From contig NZ_MVBD01000013.1 in the NCBI RefSeq assembly GCF_002000055.1, positions 1-64,000 of the forward strand: a DNA stretch of 64,000 nt. The letters run 5' to 3'. Of this stretch, positions 41,677 to 53,677 are shown piece by piece. Below the pieces are notes generated by a model. The model worked only from the letters and a program-made list of their open reading frames with translations, searched no databases and was not told the origin of the DNA. The stretch comes from Marinicella sediminis (GTDB lineage Bacteria > Pseudomonadota > Gammaproteobacteria > Xanthomonadales > Marinicellaceae). The stretch's first letter is position 1; the number at the start of each line of letters is the position of its first letter. The position numbers were made by a program, and so were the translations under genes.

Positions 41677-41690
41677 TTGATGTAGATCAA
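41677..41690. promoter_or_regulatory. FNR/DNR box upstream of the porin gene
   Basis: TTGATGTAGATCAA, a perfect TTGAT-N4-ATCAA. A -10-like TATCAT follows at 41712-41717, placing the box centre about 41 bp before the expected start site, the class II activator position. Confidence 0.85.
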
Positions 41691-41747: not shown

Positions 41748-42962
41748 ATGAAAAATACCAAACCACATGTGCCATCCCTCATGTGCTTGTGTGCCCTGAC
41801 ATTGCCCGCTATGGGAGCTGACTCGTTGTCTGCCGCCCTCACAGAAGGCGATGCCAGTTTATCCTTCAGGTACCGCTTTGAACTGGTTGACCAGGATGGC
41901 TTCAGCCGTGATGCCAATGCCTCCACCCTCAGATCACGTTTGAATTACCTGACCGCCCCATATCAGGGCTTCAGCTTTTTTATTGAGGCAGACAATGTGA
42001 TGGAAGTATTTGGTGACAATTACAACGCCGGTGCCGGTAACACACCAAACAATGGACATTATCCGGTGGTGGCGGACCCAACCGGCACAGAAATCAACCA
42101 GGCCTGGTTCAATTATGCATTCAATGAAAACCACAGCATTAAATTGGGCCGCCAGCGGATTCTGCTGGACAATCAACGCTTTGTTGGTGGCGTGGGCTGG
42201 CGGCAGAATGAACAAACTTATGACGCCATTTCACTGTCATCTGAACTGGCAGGCAGTCAGTTGTTCACTTCTTACATCGAAAATGTGAATCGAATATTTG
42301 GTGATGATGTGGCCGCAGGAGATCATGACAACCAGACCTTTCTGGCCAACTGGTCCAATACCTGGCAGGACCGGCATCAACTGACGGCTTACTATTACAA
42401 CATCGACAACCAAGATACCGCCGCATTTTCCACGGCCACCCTGGGTGCGGCGTTTAAAACCCATTGGCAGGTTGGGGAACATAAAATGATCTTTGGGGCT
42501 GAATTTGCCTCGCAGTCTGATGCCCACAACAATCCGGTCAACTATGACGCCAATTACCTGCGGCTGGATGTGGGCCTGGTCCTGGAACACCTGACCTTCT
42601 TTGGGGGTTATGAGGTGTTGGAAGGTGATGATACGCGCGACGGTACCGCGTTCCGTACCCCCCTAGCCACCCTGCATGCGTTCAATGGCTGGGCCGATCA
42701 GTTTCTGACCACTCCCAATGCCGGACTGAAAGATACATTTATCGGCGCCAAAGGCGACATCGAAGGCTTCAAGTGGCAAGTCATTTATCATGATTTTTCG
42801 GCCGACAGCGGGTCTGGTGATTTCGGTCAGGAGCTGGATTTTGCGGTGGCAAAAAAACTCACCAGCAATGTCACTGCTTTGCTCAAAGCCGCCCAATACG
42901 ATGCAGAAGACATCAAAGCCGATACCCACAAATACTGGATCATGCTCAGCGCGAACTTTTAA
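41748..42962 (+). CDS. Outer-membrane porin, alginate-export (Alg_export)-like
   Basis: 404 aa with a signal peptide (to about residue 22, LPAMGADS). Barrel: ASLSFRYRFELVDQDGFSRD, TEINQAWFNYAFNENHSIKL then GRQRILLDNQRFVGGVGWRQ, ending HKYWIMLSANF with the terminal Phe. GRQRI(L)LDNQRFVG is characteristic of porins of this type in gammaproteobacteria. The DNR box before it suggests it is made under low oxygen with the nor and nir genes, perhaps for substrate entry (inference). Confidence 0.8.
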   Translation: MKNTKPHVPSLMCLCALTLPAMGADSLSAALTEGDASLSFRYRFELVDQDGFSRDANASTLRSRLNYLTAPYQGFSFFIEADNVMEVFGDNYNAGAGNTPNNGHYPVVADPTGTEINQAWFNYAFNENHSIKLGRQRILLDNQRFVGGVGWRQNEQTYDAISLSSELAGSQLFTSYIENVNRIFGDDVAAGDHDNQTFLANWSNTWQDRHQLTAYYYNIDNQDTAAFSTATLGAAFKTHWQVGEHKMIFGAEFASQSDAHNNPVNYDANYLRLDVGLVLEHLTFFGGYEVLEGDDTRDGTAFRTPLATLHAFNGWADQFLTTPNAGLKDTFIGAKGDIEGFKWQVIYHDFSADSGSGDFGQELDFAVAKKLTSNVTALLKAAQYDAEDIKADTHKYWIMLSANF

Positions 42963-43059: not shown

Positions 43060-43073
43060 TTGACTTACATCAA
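43060..43073. promoter_or_regulatory. FNR/DNR box upstream of norC
   Basis: TTGACTTACATCAA. TATCAT at 43096-43101 is at the same distance as in the porin promoter. Start of the nor operon. Confidence 0.85.
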
Positions 43074-43171: not shown

Positions 43172-43606
43172 ATGAAAGAAGCATTCACCAAAAGCATGGC
43201 CAGGAACATCTACTACGGAGGCTCGCTGTTCTTCGTCTTACTGTTTCTGGGCTTGACTATGGACACACACAGAAAGCTGCCAAAAACAGACAACAGTGGG
43301 GCCATCACTGAACAGGTGTCACATGGCAAGCGTTTGTGGGAGGAAAATAATTGCATCGGTTGCCATACCCTGTTGGGTGAAGGCGCGTACTTTGCGCCTG
43401 AACTGGGGAATGTTTATTCCCGTTATGGCAACAGCACCGAAGCAATCAAGGCCTTCATCAAAAGTCGTCCACCAGGCGGCATCCCGGGTCGCCGCAGCAT
43501 GCCACAATTCAACTTCACTGAAGAAGAGCTGGATGCGATTGCGGAATTCCTCAAATACACCGATGGCATCGATACCCAGGATTGGCCACCGAACATTCAA
43601 GGTTAA
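43172..43606 (+). CDS. norC: Nitric oxide reductase cytochrome c subunit NorC
   Basis: 144 aa from MKEAFTKSMARNIYYGG; the upstream ATG at 43136 is not family-like. One N-terminal anchor helix (IYYGGSLFFVLLFLGLTM), then haem c site CIGCH (NCIGCHTLLGEGAYFAPELG) and distal Met in RRSMPQFNFTEEE. Donates electrons to NorB in 2 NO to N2O. RBS region CGAGGTCATT before the ATG. Confidence 0.97.
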   Translation: MKEAFTKSMARNIYYGGSLFFVLLFLGLTMDTHRKLPKTDNSGAITEQVSHGKRLWEENNCIGCHTLLGEGAYFAPELGNVYSRYGNSTEAIKAFIKSRPPGGIPGRRSMPQFNFTEEELDAIAEFLKYTDGIDTQDWPPNIQG

Positions 43607-45025
<1,419 letters not shown>

Positions 45026-45079: not shown

Positions 45080-45898
45080 ATGGAAAACATTCATCCCATT
45101 GAACAACAAAACAACCTGTTCTACCAACCCCAGGGACAGGAAGTTCAACTGTTTACCCATGCCTTTGAACAGCACTTGCCGGTGTTGCTGAAAGGCCCCA
45201 CCGGCTGTGGTAAAACCCGTTTCATCGAGCACATGGCAGCGCAACTGGGACGACCGTTGTACACCATAGCCTGTCATGATGACTTGAGTGCGGCTGACCT
45301 GATCGGCCGACACCTGATCGGTAAAGATGGCACTTACTGGCAGGATGGCCCACTGACACGGGCTGTAAGAGAAGGCGCCATATGCTACCTTGATGAAGTG
45401 GTGGAAGCCCGCAAGGACACCACCGTGGTGATCCACCCACTGACCGATAACCGACGGATGTTGCCCATTGACCGTACCGGCGAACTGCTCAGTGCAGCAC
45501 CTGGTTTTATGCTGGTGGTCTCATACAACCCGGGCTATCAAAACCTGCTCAAAGGCATGAAACCCTCCACCAGACAACGCTTTGTGGCACTGCGCTTTGA
45601 TTATCCTGAACCAGCTGCCGAAGTCAAAGTGGTGAGCCATGAAAGTGGCTGTGATATGTGCCTGGCCACAGATTTGGTCAATCTGGCCCATCACCTGCGG
45701 AAACTCAAAGACCATGACCTGGAAGATTCAGTATCAACCCGGTTATTGATCTACACCGCCCAATTGATCACCCAGGGATTATCCAGAGCAGGTGCCTGTC
45801 GGGCAGCCCTGGTTGAACCACTGACAGATGATGCCGAGACCGTTGCAGCATTGATGCAGGTGGTGGCAGCCAAATTTCCCGTCGATGGTGAACCCTGA
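45080..45898 (+). CDS. norQ: NorQ, MoxR-type AAA+ ATPase for nitric oxide reductase assembly
   Basis: 272 aa. Walker A LKGPTGCGKTRFIEHMA, Walker B ICYLDEVVEARKDTT, sensor VVSYNPGYQNLLKGMKPSTR. CbbQ/NorQ family, acting with NorD to insert the non-haem iron of NorB. Its ATG lies 55 bp after norB. Confidence 0.96.
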   Translation: MENIHPIEQQNNLFYQPQGQEVQLFTHAFEQHLPVLLKGPTGCGKTRFIEHMAAQLGRPLYTIACHDDLSAADLIGRHLIGKDGTYWQDGPLTRAVREGAICYLDEVVEARKDTTVVIHPLTDNRRMLPIDRTGELLSAAPGFMLVVSYNPGYQNLLKGMKPSTRQRFVALRFDYPEPAAEVKVVSHESGCDMCLATDLVNLAHHLRKLKDHDLEDSVSTRLLIYTAQLITQGLSRAGACRAALVEPLTDDAETVAALMQVVAAKFPVDGEP

Positions 45899-45909
45899 AA
45901 AACCTGCCC

Positions 45910-46302
45910 ATGAATCACTCCGAGTATAACCAAGTTCACCCAATTGGAGTTATTTCATATGGGCTGATGTTATTAAACCTGTTGTTTCCTGTGCTCATAT
46001 GGATGCTGTTACTGGTTTACTGGCTGCGGCATCGACACAGTGACGATCACAAAACCTATGTGGCCATCAATCAATCATTCATTGCCGGCTCCCTGTCAAC
46101 AACACTGTTTGTGTTTGCTCATCTGCTGATCATCACTGTGGCGCAATATAAAAGTACTTTTGCGCTGATTACTTTTGAGCTGTACTTCATTGTGGTGGTA
46201 CCGGTTTTTCTCATCCCAGGTTTAATGGGATTGATCAAAAGCAACGCTGGTCAGGTGTATTACGCTCCCTTGTTAGGCCGCAGATTCCGGACAGGCCGAT
46301 GA
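45910..46302 (+). CDS. Membrane protein of unknown function in the nor operon
   Basis: 130 aa with three or four helices (GLMLLNLLFPVLIWMLLLVY; LSTTLFVFAHLLIITVAQ; LITFELYFIVVVPVFLIPGL). The overall pattern resembles DUF4870-type proteins, but I am not sure of the family. It sits between norQ and an Fe-S protein gene, overlapping the latter by 4 nt, so it is co-expressed with the reductase and may have an assembly role (inference). Confidence 0.75.
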   Translation: MNHSEYNQVHPIGVISYGLMLLNLLFPVLIWMLLLVYWLRHRHSDDHKTYVAINQSFIAGSLSTTLFVFAHLLIITVAQYKSTFALITFELYFIVVVPVFLIPGLMGLIKSNAGQVYYAPLLGRRFRTGR

Positions 46303-47261
46303 TACGGCACAACCCAAAAGCATGCGTCAGTCAAAGACGTTTTTGGCAATTGGGGTTTTTACTTCTGTTCATCATCACACCACTGCTGGACTGGTTCAGA
46401 CTGGACCTTAACCTGGGCCATTTCATTCTCTTTGGTCAGGACTGGAAACTCAACCTGACGGCCTTACAAAATGCCTCAACAGTTCAACTGATCTGGCGAC
46501 TGCTGTGGGTTGCCCTTCTGCCTTTGTTATTGACAGTGGTGGTGTTTTTATTCATTGCCTGGCGCTGGGGACGGCTTTATTGTGGCTGGCTGTGCCCTCA
46601 TTTTCTGGCCGTGGAAAGCATCAATCAACTGATGAAAAGAGCCACCGGCAAGCTCAGCCTGTGGGACCGTAAAACAATACCGCAACAGCAGATGGATGGC
46701 ACACATTACCGTCAGCATCCATTTTGGTGGTTGCCAACATTCATGGCCATCATGTTGTTTGCATTTGCCTGGGCATTGATTGCCATCACCTATTTGTTGC
46801 CACCTGATGAGGTTTATCACAACCTGATCAATGGACAACTGACCCGCCATCAAATGCTGTTTCTCAGTGTGGTCAGTGGTGTTTTCATGATCGAATTTAC
46901 TTTCGCCCGACATTTGTTTTGCCGTTATGCCTGTGCTGTTGGGGTTTTCCAATCATTGGCATGGATGGCTAACAAACGGGCCCTGGTGGTGGGTTTCAAT
47001 GGCAGCCGGGCAAAAGCCTGTGCCAGTTGTGACAAATCCTGCGAACATGCCTGTCCGATGCGACTCAAACCACGAACCATCAAACGCAACATGTTCACCT
47101 GCACCCAATGCACCGCTTGTGTGGATGCCTGTACTCAGGTTCAATTGAACCTTCATCAGCCTGGCTTACTTAACATGTTGGATGGTGATTGCGCGCTGGA
47201 TAAATCACAACGGGATTTTGGCCGTAAGGCACAAATACCCCCGAGTTGTTTCGAGCAATAA
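46299..47261 (+). CDS. NapH/CcoG-like polytopic 4Fe-4S protein in the nor operon
   Basis: 320 aa. Helices near the N-terminus (FWQLGFLLLFIITPLLDWF) and two further pairs, a CGWLCP motif after helix 3 (YCGWLCPHFLAVE), a RYACAVGVF motif, then two ferredoxin-type sites: CASCDKSCEHACPMR and CTQCTACVDACTQ. This matches the NapH/CcoG/NosR C-terminal layout of electron-transfer or metal-handling proteins (possible copper or haem oxidation step). Not part of a standard norCBQD set. Overlaps the previous gene by 4 nt; norD starts 1 nt after its stop. Confidence 0.85.
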   Translation: MIRHNPKACVSQRRFWQLGFLLLFIITPLLDWFRLDLNLGHFILFGQDWKLNLTALQNASTVQLIWRLLWVALLPLLLTVVVFLFIAWRWGRLYCGWLCPHFLAVESINQLMKRATGKLSLWDRKTIPQQQMDGTHYRQHPFWWLPTFMAIMLFAFAWALIAITYLLPPDEVYHNLINGQLTRHQMLFLSVVSGVFMIEFTFARHLFCRYACAVGVFQSLAWMANKRALVVGFNGSRAKACASCDKSCEHACPMRLKPRTIKRNMFTCTQCTACVDACTQVQLNLHQPGLLNMLDGDCALDKSQRDFGRKAQIPPSCFEQ

Positions 47262-47262
47262 C

Positions 47263-49086
47263 ATGGAAGAATGGGTTGGCGAAAAGTGGCACCATTTCAT
47301 CACTGGTAAGACCCAGCGCCGATATCCTCAGGCAGCCATCAGACTGGAAGACGTACAGACACAACTGGCGGTTTATTTCCGGGCATTGGGTGGTGATGCC
47401 GGGGTGAGCTTGGGTCACACATCAGCCAAAGTGGTTCAGGCACACCGCAACTGGTTACACATAATCGCCGGGACTGGCAAAAAAGCAGAACTGGCACATT
47501 TCAGCAGAGACCACCTGTACCTGCCGGAAGTGCTCGAATGCCATCCCACCCGGGCATTGAATCAATCCTTGTATTTTTGGTTGGCTGCTCTGGCCAGCTT
47601 GAATCAATCTCCACATGCCAAACACCTCATTGAACACAATCAATACCTGACCCGGCAGGTCCTGGCACGGTGGCCGGGATTGACAAACATTTATACCTCC
47701 CTCAGCCAGGCCGAACTGAACAACCGACCAGCCCTGAGCTCTTTACCCCATCAGTGGCAACACACCGAACGCCTGCTCAGACTGGTATTGACAGATCCTC
47801 ATGGCAACCATACACGAAAGGGGGAAACCGCACAACTGAGCCAACCGGTCATCATGTGGCTACAGTCAACCGACCAGGCCCTGGCCACCAAGGGCCGGCA
47901 AGATCAAGCCGGTCACACACCTCAACATTCGGCTGATCAGGTACACACAGCCAGTCACAAAAGACACCAGGCAGAACACACAGATACCCAGGAGGAAGAA
48001 GGCGGCTTTATGTCATTCCGACTGGAAAGCTTGTTCTCCTGGTCTGAGTTCATCAATCTGGAGCGCTCTGAAGATGACAGCGGGGATGAAGATGTGATGC
48101 GGGTGGCTGAAGACCTGGATCACCTCAGCATCAATCAGGGAGAAGCGGGACACACAATCAAACTGGATCTGGATTTGCCTGGCAGTGATTACGATGATGT
48201 GCAGTTATCAGAAGGCATTTTGTTACCGGAATGGGATCACCGCAAACAACGGCTGCAAAAGGACCACTGCGCCTTACAACTGATGGCACTCAGACTGACT
48301 GAAACCCACCATTGGCCGACAGAATTAAAACCACAGGCTAACCGCCTCAGGCGACAATTTGAAGCCCTTAAACCGATCAGTTATTGGCAGAACAAGCAAG
48401 CCGATGGTGATGAAATTGATTTTCATGCGGTGTTGGAACACCGCTCCAGCCAACAACAGCAAGCCACCGATGCCAATCTATTCCGGCGCCGGGCGCCGGT
48501 GAACCGAGATCTGGCCACCTTAATCCTCACGGATCTGTCGCTGTCTACTGATGCCCATGTCAACAATGACAAGAAAGTCATCGATGTCATCAAAGAATCT
48601 TTGTTCCTGCTGAGTGCAGGATTATCGGCAGCTGATGAACGTTTTGCAATTGCCGGTTTTACTTCAAGAAAGCGCAATCACGTCCGCTATTACCCCATCA
48701 AATCGTTTGAGCAGCCATTTGATCAACGTTGTGAAGAACAGATACAGGCAATCAGACCTGCCTATTATACCCGCATGGGTGCTGCCATCAGGTATGCCAC
48801 CAGGCAGTTAAACACCCAAAACAACAACCAGAAATTGTTGCTTATCCTGACCGATGGCAAACCCAATGACCTGGATATCTATGAAGGTCGCTATGGTTTG
48901 GAAGATACCCGTCAGGCGATCACCGAAGCCAGGCAACAGGGGCTGACTCCTTTTTGTGTGTCGATTGATTACCAGGCTGCCGATTACCTGCCCTACCTGT
49001 TTGGTAACCAGGGTTTCATTCACCTGAACAATGCCCTGGACTTACCCCGAAAATTGCCCAGACTGTTTGTGCAACTGACCCAATAG
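47263..49086 (+). CDS. norD: NorD, VWA-domain nitric oxide reductase activation protein
   Basis: 607 aa from MEEWVGEKWHHFITG; an upstream in-frame ATG lies in the previous gene and is rejected. Acidic, Gln/His-rich middle (about residues 215-260). The C-terminal von Willebrand A domain carries the MIDAS: TDLSLSTDAHV (D-x-S-x-S), YTRMGAAIRYATRQL (Thr) and LLILTDGKPND (Asp). Works with NorQ in NorB maturation. Closes the nor operon. Confidence 0.95.
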   Translation: MEEWVGEKWHHFITGKTQRRYPQAAIRLEDVQTQLAVYFRALGGDAGVSLGHTSAKVVQAHRNWLHIIAGTGKKAELAHFSRDHLYLPEVLECHPTRALNQSLYFWLAALASLNQSPHAKHLIEHNQYLTRQVLARWPGLTNIYTSLSQAELNNRPALSSLPHQWQHTERLLRLVLTDPHGNHTRKGETAQLSQPVIMWLQSTDQALATKGRQDQAGHTPQHSADQVHTASHKRHQAEHTDTQEEEGGFMSFRLESLFSWSEFINLERSEDDSGDEDVMRVAEDLDHLSINQGEAGHTIKLDLDLPGSDYDDVQLSEGILLPEWDHRKQRLQKDHCALQLMALRLTETHHWPTELKPQANRLRRQFEALKPISYWQNKQADGDEIDFHAVLEHRSSQQQQATDANLFRRRAPVNRDLATLILTDLSLSTDAHVNNDKKVIDVIKESLFLLSAGLSAADERFAIAGFTSRKRNHVRYYPIKSFEQPFDQRCEEQIQAIRPAYYTRMGAAIRYATRQLNTQNNNQKLLLILTDGKPNDLDIYEGRYGLEDTRQAITEARQQGLTPFCVSIDYQAADYLPYLFGNQGFIHLNNALDLPRKLPRLFVQLTQ

Positions 49087-49087
49087 T

Positions 49088-49149
49088 TTGACCCAGATCA
49101 ATATTCATTGCTTTTGGTGACGCACAGCAGCCCACTTGATCCAGATCAA
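49088..49149. promoter_or_regulatory. Two FNR/DNR boxes upstream of the TonB receptor gene
   Basis: TTGACCCAGATCAA at 49088-49101 and TTGATCCAGATCAA at 49136-49149, centres 48 bp apart. The nearer box lies about 20 bp before CATAAA (49170-49175), a -10 candidate. Two boxes suggest stronger or more graded control than for nirS or norC. Confidence 0.85.
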
Positions 49150-49208: not shown

Positions 49209-51395
49209 ATGAAACCAAAACCAACCATTGGCGCCCTGTTGGCGCTCTGTGGCCTGTCGCTGAATATCAGTCAGGCCAACGATCAATCGCAGCAAACCAC
49301 TGACCTGGACAACCTGGTAGTGGTTGCTTATAAACAAGCCAGACCCATTCAGGAGGTGGTCGGAGACGTCTCCGTCATCCAGGCCAGTCAGCTCGAAGAA
49401 TCAATGGCTCAGGACATGGCTGGTGCAATCAAGTATGAAGCCAACATCCACCTGGAAGATGGCGGTACTCGGTTCGGCACCTCAGGCATCAATATTCGCG
49501 GGATCGGTGGCAACCGGGTGGCCATTGAAATAGATGGCATACCCAATGCCAAAGCCTTTGAACTGGGTTCTTACTCATTGGCCACTGCCGGATTTCCTGA
49601 AATTGACCTGATCCAAAACATAGAAATCCTCAAAGGCCCCGCCTCAACGCTTTATGGGTCAGATGCTCTGGGTGGCGTTGTGACCATCAACACCTGGGAT
49701 CCTGATGTGTTGCTGGCCGGCCATGAAGATGACAACTGGACCCGCCTGCGCCTGGGCTTTGATGGCAAACGACATGGCAGATTCATCACCCTCAGTTCGG
49801 CATGGGATGGTGATCAGCAAGGCCTGTTATTGTCAGCCACTCAACGTGATGGCAAGGGCGTGATCAATGAATTGTCAAATCTGACCAAAGACACCGCCGA
49901 CTGGGATGCTCAATCATTGTTTGCTAAATGGAACACAGAGTTATCGGGAGGGACCACATTGAGCCTGGGGTTGCATGCCAATCAAAAAGATCAGCACACG
50001 CAGATCAATTCTTTCATTGGTCAGGGTCGCTTCAGTCGCACCACTGCCTTGTCAGGAGATGATCAGTCAAAGGATCACAAAATCCATCTGAACATCGACT
50101 TTCTGGTCAATGGCCAATGGGCTGACGAAGGACATGTGCTGTTGTATCATGCCAACACCCGGTTCGTTCAGGACACCTTTGAAAACCGTTCATCCCGGCG
50201 GGGAACACCTTTGTTTCAGTACCGCCGGTTTGACTTTGACAGCAGCCGCGATGGTCTGGAATTGAATTTCACCCGTTCCTGGTACAGCAACAACACACAA
50301 CACCAGCTGATATATGGTGTTGAGTACACCCTTTCTGCTGTGGAAGAGAGCAGAAATGCGGAAGAGACGAACCTGCTCACCGGACTGACCACTCAGAATC
50401 TGTTGGGTGAACAATTTCCCCTGCGGGATTTTCCACGCACCGATGTCAGAGAACTGGGAATCTTCATACATGATGAAATCAGTTTTGCCGACAGTCGCTT
50501 GACCCTGGTTCCCGCTGTGCGGTTTGACCACTATAAGCTGTCTCCGGATCGCGATGCGGTTTTTGATAATGGCGCCGGCGACGCCACTGTTGTGAGCATC
50601 AGTGAAGCCGATTTTTCACCCAAACTGGGGGTGTTGTATGACCTCAGTGATGAAATAAATCTGTATGCCCAATATGTGCGTGGCTTCAGGGCTCCACCTT
50701 ACGATGATGTCAACATAGGCTTTAATCTGGCCTTATTCAATTACCGGGCCATTCCCAATCCTGAACTCAAATCTGAACACTCAAATGGCTTTGAAGCCGG
50801 ATTTCGATTCGCCGGAAACCAGCACCAAGTTGAATTCAATGTGTTCCATAACACATACCGTGACCTGATCATCAGTCGGGACCTGATTGGTCGTGACCCG
50901 GACACCGATGCCCTGATTTTTCAATCCCGCAATGTGCAAGATGCCACCATTTACGGTGCTGAACTGGACCTTCACTGGCAGATCAATGACCAATGGCGGA
51001 CAGACTGGTCACTGGCCTGGACCCGGGGCCAGGACGATGTTTCTGATCAGCCATTGAATCACCTTTCACCACCCAAGGCCACCGGCCTCTTGCAATGGCA
51101 GTCCAGCAAGAAAAAGTGGCTGGTAAATCTCTATGGTGTGTTCAGCCAGGCCCAGAATCGGCAAGATGATCCGGATGATGAATTGTTCAACGCCCCAGGC
51201 TATGTCACTTTTGACCTCACCATCGGCCATCAACTCACGCCCAACGGCCACCTGTCCGTTGGGGTATTCAATCTGACCGACCAGAAATACTGGTTGTGGC
51301 AACAGGTCAGAAATTTTGACAACAACGAAGCCTTGATCGAGGCCCTGGCGCAGGCCTCAAGGCATGCCCGTATCAGTTATGTTCATGAGTGGTGA
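49209..51395 (+). CDS. TonB-dependent receptor, haem/hemoglobin type
   Basis: 728-aa outer-membrane receptor. Signal peptide (to about residue 23, SQAND), TonB box-like DNLVVVAYK, plug with INIRGIGGNRVAIEIDGIPN and ILKGPASTLYGSDALGGVVT, then a 22-strand barrel. It has FRAPPYDDVN and, 21 residues later, NPELK, which correspond to the FRAP and NPNL boxes that mark haem receptors (HemR/HmuR/TdhA type). The last residues (RISYVHEW) end in an aromatic. Under two DNR boxes and next to nirS, so probably supplies haem or a related tetrapyrrole to denitrification enzymes (inference). Confidence 0.85.
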   Translation: MKPKPTIGALLALCGLSLNISQANDQSQQTTDLDNLVVVAYKQARPIQEVVGDVSVIQASQLEESMAQDMAGAIKYEANIHLEDGGTRFGTSGINIRGIGGNRVAIEIDGIPNAKAFELGSYSLATAGFPEIDLIQNIEILKGPASTLYGSDALGGVVTINTWDPDVLLAGHEDDNWTRLRLGFDGKRHGRFITLSSAWDGDQQGLLLSATQRDGKGVINELSNLTKDTADWDAQSLFAKWNTELSGGTTLSLGLHANQKDQHTQINSFIGQGRFSRTTALSGDDQSKDHKIHLNIDFLVNGQWADEGHVLLYHANTRFVQDTFENRSSRRGTPLFQYRRFDFDSSRDGLELNFTRSWYSNNTQHQLIYGVEYTLSAVEESRNAEETNLLTGLTTQNLLGEQFPLRDFPRTDVRELGIFIHDEISFADSRLTLVPAVRFDHYKLSPDRDAVFDNGAGDATVVSISEADFSPKLGVLYDLSDEINLYAQYVRGFRAPPYDDVNIGFNLALFNYRAIPNPELKSEHSNGFEAGFRFAGNQHQVEFNVFHNTYRDLIISRDLIGRDPDTDALIFQSRNVQDATIYGAELDLHWQINDQWRTDWSLAWTRGQDDVSDQPLNHLSPPKATGLLQWQSSKKKWLVNLYGVFSQAQNRQDDPDDELFNAPGYVTFDLTIGHQLTPNGHLSVGVFNLTDQKYWLWQQVRNFDNNEALIEALAQASRHARISYVHEW

Positions 51396-51526: not shown

Positions 51527-53677
<2,151 letters not shown>

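Follow-up and report, generated by a model that had tools for sequence, protein, structure and literature searches.

Background

The NO reductase cNor makes N2O in denitrifying bacteria. The consulted portions of published descriptions of its gene cluster name six genes only, in the order norCBQDEF or norEFCBQD (PMC9976466, PMC13036017, PMC8139620); as a preliminary description of the DNA studied here had said, the iron-sulfur protein considered below is not among them. Insertion of FeB, the non-haem iron of cNor, requires NorQD and depends as well on acidic residues of NorB that face the cytoplasm (excerpts of PMC9976466 and PMC13036017). This insertion is only partly understood: the NorQD motor has structures, and the excerpted text of the nor papers names neither the iron source nor a redox control.

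Iron-sulfur proteins of a comparable kind have been described. According to the excerpted text of PMC7558416, CcoG contains two 4Fe-4S clusters, supports the cbb3 oxidase and its CuB subunit, has an Ig-like domain as its long C-terminal part, and in vitro reduced Cu(II) and not Fe(III); YccM is presented there as CcoG-like without the Ig-like domain.

The DNA analysed here, called the window, is a 64,000-nucleotide stretch of Marinicella sediminis (contig NZ_MVBD01000013.1, positions 1 to 64,000). Between norQ and norD it encodes a 130 amino acid membrane protein, TM130, and a 320 amino acid Fe-S protein for which we coin the label NorFeS. From its sequence NorFeS appears to represent a new, cNor-dedicated subfamily of a known kind of protein, with a putative function. 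Plasmid records already annotate it as '4Fe-4S binding protein'. No description of it was found in the open-access literature, subscription papers lying mostly outside the search. In the excerpted text of PMC10390337 the locus tags given for norQ and norD in either genome are separated by a single tag that is not listed, and our guess is that this tag is NorFeS.

Organization of the nor locus

NorC, NorB, NorQ and NorD are all present and collinear, and six genes lie on one strand in the order norC-norB-norQ-TM130-NorFeS-norD:

43060..43073, + strand: FNR/DNR-like box 5' of norC, with one mismatch to TTGATN4ATCAA (mismatched matches often arise by chance)
43172..43606, + strand: norC, cytochrome c subunit of cNor, directly 5' of norB; Cytochrom_C match, 6.2e-13; start placed at the first ATG of the frame
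43619..45025, + strand: norB, catalytic subunit of cNor; COX1 match, 9.2e-78
45080..45898, + strand: norQ, MoxR-type AAA+ ATPase; AAA_5 match, 4.5e-37, and CbbQ_C match, 5.2e-30
45910..46302, + strand: TM130, small helical membrane protein of 130 amino acids, divergent DUF4870-like
46299..47261, + strand: NorFeS, membrane 4Fe-4S protein of 320 amino acids, NapH/CcoG-like, without an Ig-like tail; Fer4_5 match, 1.9e-8
47263..49086, + strand: norD, VWA-domain partner of NorQ; VWA match, 8.8e-9

The two open reading frames that the preliminary description placed between norQ and norD are thus at exactly the positions it gave, and one of them, the 4Fe-4S membrane protein, matches Fer4_5. NorFeS is no chance reading frame: it represents a conserved family with 12 invariant Cys (see below) and turns up repeatedly in nor clusters across the phylum. 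Its wording that they are stitched in by short overlaps holds for the joint of TM130 and NorFeS, which share 4 nt (ATGA, 46299-46302), and fails for the outer joints, where gaps of 11 nt (norQ to TM130) and 1 nt (NorFeS to norD) were found. The NorB of the window is 71-79% identical to NorB from the nor clusters of Thiothrix, Amphritea and Sphaerotilus, and its NorD is 37-42% identical to those of Amphritea and Sphaerotilus.

A motif search with TTGATN4ATCAA gave no exact FNR/DNR-like box inside the nor operon; three further matches with one mismatch fall within its coding sequence, at 46231, 46776 and 47630. An exact box (41677-41690, + strand) is located upstream of a gene for an alginate-export-like outer-membrane protein (41748-42962), itself just 5' of norC. 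Between nor and nirS lies a TonB-dependent receptor gene (49209-51395, + strand) preceded by two boxes, one exact (49136-49149) and one with a single mismatch (49088-49101); judging from these sites, a TonB-dependent outer-membrane receptor possibly belongs to the denitrification regulon. The cd1 nitrite reductase NirS usually has one N-terminal cytochrome c domain. The 713 amino acid NirS-like protein of the window (51536-53677, + strand) has two (residues 54-140 and 212-281), followed by the D1 domain.

Sequence features and family placement of NorFeS

Twelve Cys residues, together with H101 and H205, are invariant across 55 aligned NorFeS sequences, an alignment which excludes the split copy of genome G038, where Tyr occupies position 205. 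The residues fall in these motifs:

46581..46601, + strand: CGWLCPH (C95, C99 and H101), located where the second hydrophobic segment ends; all three invariant in the 55
46905..46934, + strand: ARHLFCRYAC (H205, C208 and C212), with no Pro after the second Cys; all three invariant in the 55
47019..47132, + strand: two 4Fe-4S motifs, C241-x2-C-x3-C-x3-CP and C268-x2-C-x2-C-x3-C278

The best NCBIfam matches of NorFeS are the NapH models, NapH (NF007013) at 58.7 bits and NapH/MauN (TIGR02163) at 57.8 bits, which lie far under their cut-offs of 234 and 213. The CcoG model (TIGR02745) gave 53.1 bits, likewise far below its cut-off of 316.7, and NosR (NF046105) matched over the C-terminal part of the model only, at 25.8 of 1000 bits, short of a full-length score. 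By E-value the NapH, NapH/MauN and CcoG models match all 11 rows of the first NorFeS alignment. Applied to the 41 NorFeS proteins of the class sample (see below), the CcoG model registered 39, the top score being 59.5 bits; the broken or contig-edge copies in G180 and G360 did not register.

CcoG/RdxA/FixG (TIGR02745) and NorFeS have in common the paired CxxxC near the membrane, two C-terminal 4Fe-4S motifs, the GR-x-x-CG-x-x-CP and FQS stretches and an apparent tie to the building of a haem-copper-superfamily enzyme, in the case of CcoG the cbb3 oxidase. In the CcoG rows, however, Gln stands where NorFeS has H101 and Glu where it has H205, the second pair reads REQVCxxxCP whereas NorFeS lacks Pro after C212, the first 4Fe-4S motif lacks one residue that NorFeS has in addition, and the chain continues for more than 150 residues past the region, a long C-terminal part that the 320 amino acid NorFeS does without. 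NorFeS also coexists with CcoG in the same genomes, unlike a replacement.

NapH/MauN proteins have the same overall layout and two 4Fe-4S motifs but form a separate clade; the second motif of NorFeS has no CP, and NorFeS lies among nor genes. In a survey that covered the nor and NnrS families its neighbours are mostly nor genes. The Sphaerotilus locus has a nap cluster with its own napH upstream of norC. YccM of E. coli is short and has His at the 205 position, as NorFeS does, so that H205 alone does not signal a cNor role; it differs in its very long branch elsewhere in the tree, in having no CPH motif and in keeping CP after the second Cys pair. The marks that set NorFeS apart from CcoG and NapH are therefore CGWLCPH, ARHxFC-x3-C without Pro, C-x2-C-x3-C-x3-CP in nearly all rows (the Sphaerotilus protein has a longer loop in this motif) and the missing long tail. 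NorFeS ends 42 residues past the last 4Fe-4S Cys, and no Pfam family matched this C-terminal stretch.

In a tree of 31 rows the 21 NorFeS rows split off with support of 100/99, the seven CcoG rows group at 97/93 and NapH at 100/100; the tree omits three long-branch rows, with which the NorFeS split stands at 97/95. Judged by these alignments, NorFeS is a clade of its own apart from CcoG and NapH.

Hydropathy analysis revealed hydrophobic segments at about residues 15-39, 59-95, 141-170 and 184-204, followed by a Cys-rich, basic C-terminal region, from which we infer that NorFeS crosses the membrane with four helices and carries its clusters at the cytoplasmic face. The AlphaFold2 model has a middling mean pLDDT of 74, with values below 50 at residues 93-97 and 255-270. 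Neither Foldseek nor VIA-align found a significant structure match for it (best Z 4.3), and a PDB sequence search with the NorFeS family profile gave a best E of only 0.047.

Co-occurrence with one cNor lineage

In a class sample of 369 genomes NorFeS was found in 41 of the 57 with a NorB at least 66% identical to that of the window, versus 1 of the 312 others; that one, G266, has a norF-norQ-TM-FeS-norD stretch on a contig that stops before norB. It occurs in none of five class genomes with a NorB 50-66% identical and in none of 16 with only a lower NorB. The phylum sample agrees: 16 of 26 genomes with this NorB versus 1 of 372 others (G615, where NorFeS lies beside norQ and norD on a 3.4-kb contig), and 0/24 and 0/15 for NorB 54-59% identical and lower, respectively. 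Some genomes, such as G000, belong to both samples, and since related genomes are not independent these counts overstate the number of events. The genome searches scored part of the first-look candidates (six per genome in the class search), so that misses may have occurred; in the class search, hits of 105 bits or less were counted as other, CcoG-like families, except for an 81-bit end piece in G126, and broken or contig-edge copies in G180, G157 and G360 were scored as present.

NorFeS and norB lie less than 5 kb apart in all 32 class genomes that have both on one contig (31 of them with both on the same strand), and on different contigs in nine. Named carriers include plasmids of Thiothrix fructosivorans, Amphritea japonica and Sphaerotilus sulfidivorans; among the best 80 of 538 matches in the genome_contigs collection there are, besides, many metagenome-assembled genomes and some isolates of Sulfuricella, Thiodiazotropha, Sedimenticola, Chromatiales, Gallionellaceae and a Solemya symbiont. 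NorFeS hardly occurs outside genomes with one cNor lineage, which upholds the link to cNor drawn in the preliminary description. A genome-specific insertion was ruled out, as NorFeS spans the cNor clade.

Gene order and copies away from nor

NorFeS is immediately followed by norD at 36 of 40 loci in the class sample, at 15 of 16 in the phylum sample and at 51 of the 80 from genome_contigs (best 80 of 538 matches). Directly upstream lies TM130 or norQ, at 30/40, 14/16 and 50/80 of them, respectively, the last again for the best 80 of 538. The 40 class loci are the 42 carrier genomes less the window itself and G360, whose copy is at a contig end; part of the remaining flanks are contig ends as well.

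At 19 of the 80 genome_contigs loci (best 80 of 538 matches) the fetched stretch holds no nor gene. This is what would be expected of a general reductase of copper or another metal, YccM/CcoG-like, that lies in the nor operon by chance and serves other enzymes, and NorFeS is indeed the same kind of protein as CcoG and YccM. We consider this explanation unlikely, because 18 of the 19 genomes have nor genes elsewhere (norB in 12, and norD in six of the other seven), because CcoG is kept in 38 of 41 carriers and because NorFeS is nearly absent from genomes without this cNor. Only G428, one of the seven NorFeS genomes without a NorB match, shows neither norB nor norD. The idea of NorFeS genomes lacking cNor was dropped, six of those seven having a full-length norD.

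Five such genomes (G425, G427, G436, G439 and G440, loci L243-L247, several of them Thiodiazotropha-type) have the order norE-norF-norQ-(TM)-norD, with no norCB found; the contigs of G436 and G439 stop shortly past norE. Since norB occurs twice, about 24 kb apart, in two relatives, it is plausible that the missing norCB is a repeated contig lost in binning. Among the COX1 matches in the seven genomes without a NorB match, nine score 384-529 bits, and one is a fragment of 312 bases at a contig end in G431. The weak or odd COX1 matches L174-L179 were rejected as NorB on reading of the sequences. Four of these, L176-L179, are divergent haem-copper-like proteins of about 460 amino acids (COX1, 43-56 bits) from Thiodiazotropha-type genomes, and the adjacent gene is COX15-like by sequence reading.

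Pfam searches on nine neighbours of unlinked NorFeS copies gave mostly unrelated genes. In Thiomargarita/Thiotrichaceae (L056:2647-5293, L060:5368-8939 and L065:1039-3633) NorFeS directly follows genes for a conserved membrane protein of 317-322 amino acids and for cytochromes c, which are diheme by Pfam in L060 and by sequence reading elsewhere; the L056 copy of the membrane protein had no Pfam match. L053:7012-8948 holds two NorFeS genes in tandem away from nor. At L082:8001-8957, in the symbiont genome G440 without a detected norB, NorFeS is interrupted by a stop codon and was left out of alignment A4. In G256 and G359 (L135:7662-8971 and L142:2761-4104) a second norE-norF pair occupies the place between TM130 and norD where NorFeS stands elsewhere; NorFeS was found in neither genome.

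Gain or loss

In a quickly built tree of 79 NorB rows, of which 50 have NorFeS, presence and absence require 16 changes, against an average of 24 for shuffled labels, and at least eight changes are forced by well supported branches. L124 and L126, two loci at contig edges, are not in the tree; for Roseibium and Sulfuricurvum the absence of NorFeS was scored on the plasmid stretch alone, and L134, L140 and L145, which locally lack part of the cluster, were scored after a search of the whole genomes for NorFeS.

The same pattern is seen within the genus of the window, where norB is found in 11 of 17 relatives. At the norQ-norD joint of these 11, both genes are present in two, TM130 alone in two and neither in seven. 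The neighbourhood survey that the preliminary description had proposed therefore shows the pair between norQ and norD in 2 of 11 close relatives, not absent from all of them. Two of the three nearest NorB relatives, G003 and G004 (91-93%), have TM130 without NorFeS; the third, G017 (92%), has both. In G015, a genome additional to the 11, NorFeS is followed by norD at the contig edge.

Because carriers of NorFeS are scattered across the cNor clade and eight or more changes are forced, ancestral presence with repeated loss fits better than insertion, and the term 'inserted' in the preliminary description had the polarity wrong. Ancestral NorFeS in this cNor lineage, lost repeatedly even within a genus, looks like the simplest reading of the sequence data. 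Transfer of the accessory block is a possible alternative. Repeated loss is also what a neutral hitchhiker without function would show, an explanation we hold to be most improbable given that 12 Cys and other residues are invariant over 55 sequences and that the gene keeps its place before norD in three samples.

Covariation with the accessory genes

Pairwise distances of NorFeS at 64 thinned loci, calculated with length limits which exclude partial sequences, correlate with those of NorD (0.75), NorQ (0.70), NorB (0.61) and NorC (0.47). With NorB partialled out the values are 0.61 for NorD, 0.50 for NorQ and 0.18 for NorC; the known pair NorQ-NorD reaches 0.85 on the same set. NorE and TM130 behave alike, and the accessory genes for NorE, NorQ, TM130, NorFeS and NorD co-vary as a block. 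That the divergence of NorFeS follows NorQ and NorD is suggestive only of work with NorQD; since these genes vary jointly and adjacent genes may be exchanged in one piece, the correlation is no proof of contact. A search for fusions gave no open reading frame with two nor domains. The genes norQ, norD, norE and norF belong to the same operon type as NorFeS and encode other protein families; Q, D and E have the pattern of divergence in common with it.

The preliminary description saw in the extra genes a co-evolved module for assembly of cNor or for its electron supply. Divergence that tracks norQ and norD more than norB and norC agrees with the first half. For the second half, NorFeS might act as a NapH-like protein, taking electrons from quinol or ferredoxin and feeding NorC/NorB in turnover. 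Its best NCBIfam match, though weak, is NapH (58.7 bits), and in a few Thiotrichaceae/Thiomargarita loci it follows diheme cytochrome c genes. Nevertheless, cytochrome b of bc1 is found in 39 of 41 NorFeS carriers and 15 of 16 non-carriers, the divergence of NorFeS tracks NorC least, and no napG is annotated beside NorFeS in three plasmid records; we regard such a role as fairly unlikely. Electron supply in place of bc1 is disfavoured because bc1 is present with or without NorFeS, and a replacement of bc1 was rejected on the same 39/41. CcoG scores above its cut-off in 38 of the 41 carriers and in 14 of the 16 non-carriers, and NorFeS as a CcoG replacement was likewise rejected.

Alternatively, NorFeS may be a redox or NO sensor, or an activator, of NorQD, its clusters sensing the redox state or NO and reducing an inhibitory disulphide of NorQ. 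A Cys in the Walker A motif is present in nearly all NorQ proteins here, and under oxidising conditions NorQ has an inhibitory disulphide in the ATP site, according to the excerpts of PMC13036017; that the Walker A Cys is one of the two Cys of that disulphide is our assumption. This role seems quite unlikely, as the Walker A Cys is equally common at class loci with NorFeS (31/34) and without it (13/14), and NorFeS therefore does not track the need.

Proposed role of NorFeS

Our preferred reading, which we put forward tentatively and short of calling it probable, is that NorFeS is a maturation factor dedicated to cNor that works with NorQ and NorD and has a redox role in the loading of FeB. Its clusters would deliver electrons to a site at the membrane edge formed by C95, C99, H101, H205, C208 and C212, and the protein would act as CcoG does for CuB of the cbb3 oxidase. 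It might keep or make iron ferrous, or reduce the apo-site, while the NorQD motor would open NorB from the cytoplasmic side for insertion of FeB. Since clusters have lost NorFeS many times, it would improve or protect loading and not be absolutely required.

In a more specific and doubtful form of this proposal, metal insertion would be the work of a machine with three parts, NorFeS being its redox arm. As a membrane-bound 4Fe-4S metal reductase NorFeS would pass ferrous iron, or the electron that fixes the iron, to apo-NorB while the AAA+/VWA motor NorQ/NorD forces NorB open. It would be the cNor-specific counterpart of CcoG, retargeted from copper at CuB to iron at FeB with the aid of the His ligands H101 and H205. 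Because CcoG reduced Cu(II) and not Fe(III), ferric reduction would be a change of substrate that is absent from CcoG, and this counts against the simplest form of a redox role in FeB loading. Also counting against the proposed role, NorFeS is absent from 16 of 57 class genomes with this NorB and from 9 of 11 same-genus relatives with norB, and an active P. denitrificans cNor was made from norCBQDEF, a list in the excerpted text of PMC9976466 that has no NorFeS-type gene.

For the iron source and redox control of FeB insertion, a conserved norD-adjacent gene that many cNor clusters share, in gammaproteobacteria, betaproteobacteria and other proteobacteria, outside the norCBQDEF scheme, is a concrete candidate, and natural comparisons are provided by close relatives whose operons are the same except for its presence or absence. 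The gene further suggests that, within the haem-copper superfamily, adaptation of CcoG-like proteins was not limited to a single metal site.

The small membrane protein TM130

The preliminary description treated the two genes as one module, a view which did not survive the survey: TM130 occurs in 6 of 13 class stretches that have norQ and norD without NorFeS, and is missing from 10 of 33 with NorFeS. This independent occurrence rules out a two-gene module and makes TM130 an accessory in its own right, optional in cNor clusters and with no obligate NorFeS partner.

Relatives of TM130 outside the genus are 23-37% identical over the rows aligned. It resembles DUF4870 (PF09685), possibly with a Tic20 fold, by weak Pfam matches and by a predicted fold near that of TIC-complex chains. 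With E values up to 0.1 allowed, DUF4870 matches 10 of 17 members of the TM130 family, the best at 3.8e-6, but the TM130 of the window scores 12.3 against 25 bits, below the Pfam cut-off. Foldseek returned E values of 0.9 or more for the AlphaFold2 model, which has a mean pLDDT of 92 and four long helices. Its best VIA-align matches include three chains of TOC-TIC/TIC complexes, which we take to be Tic20, at Z 7.9-8.2 over 116-119 residues, tied with helices of unrelated ion channels.
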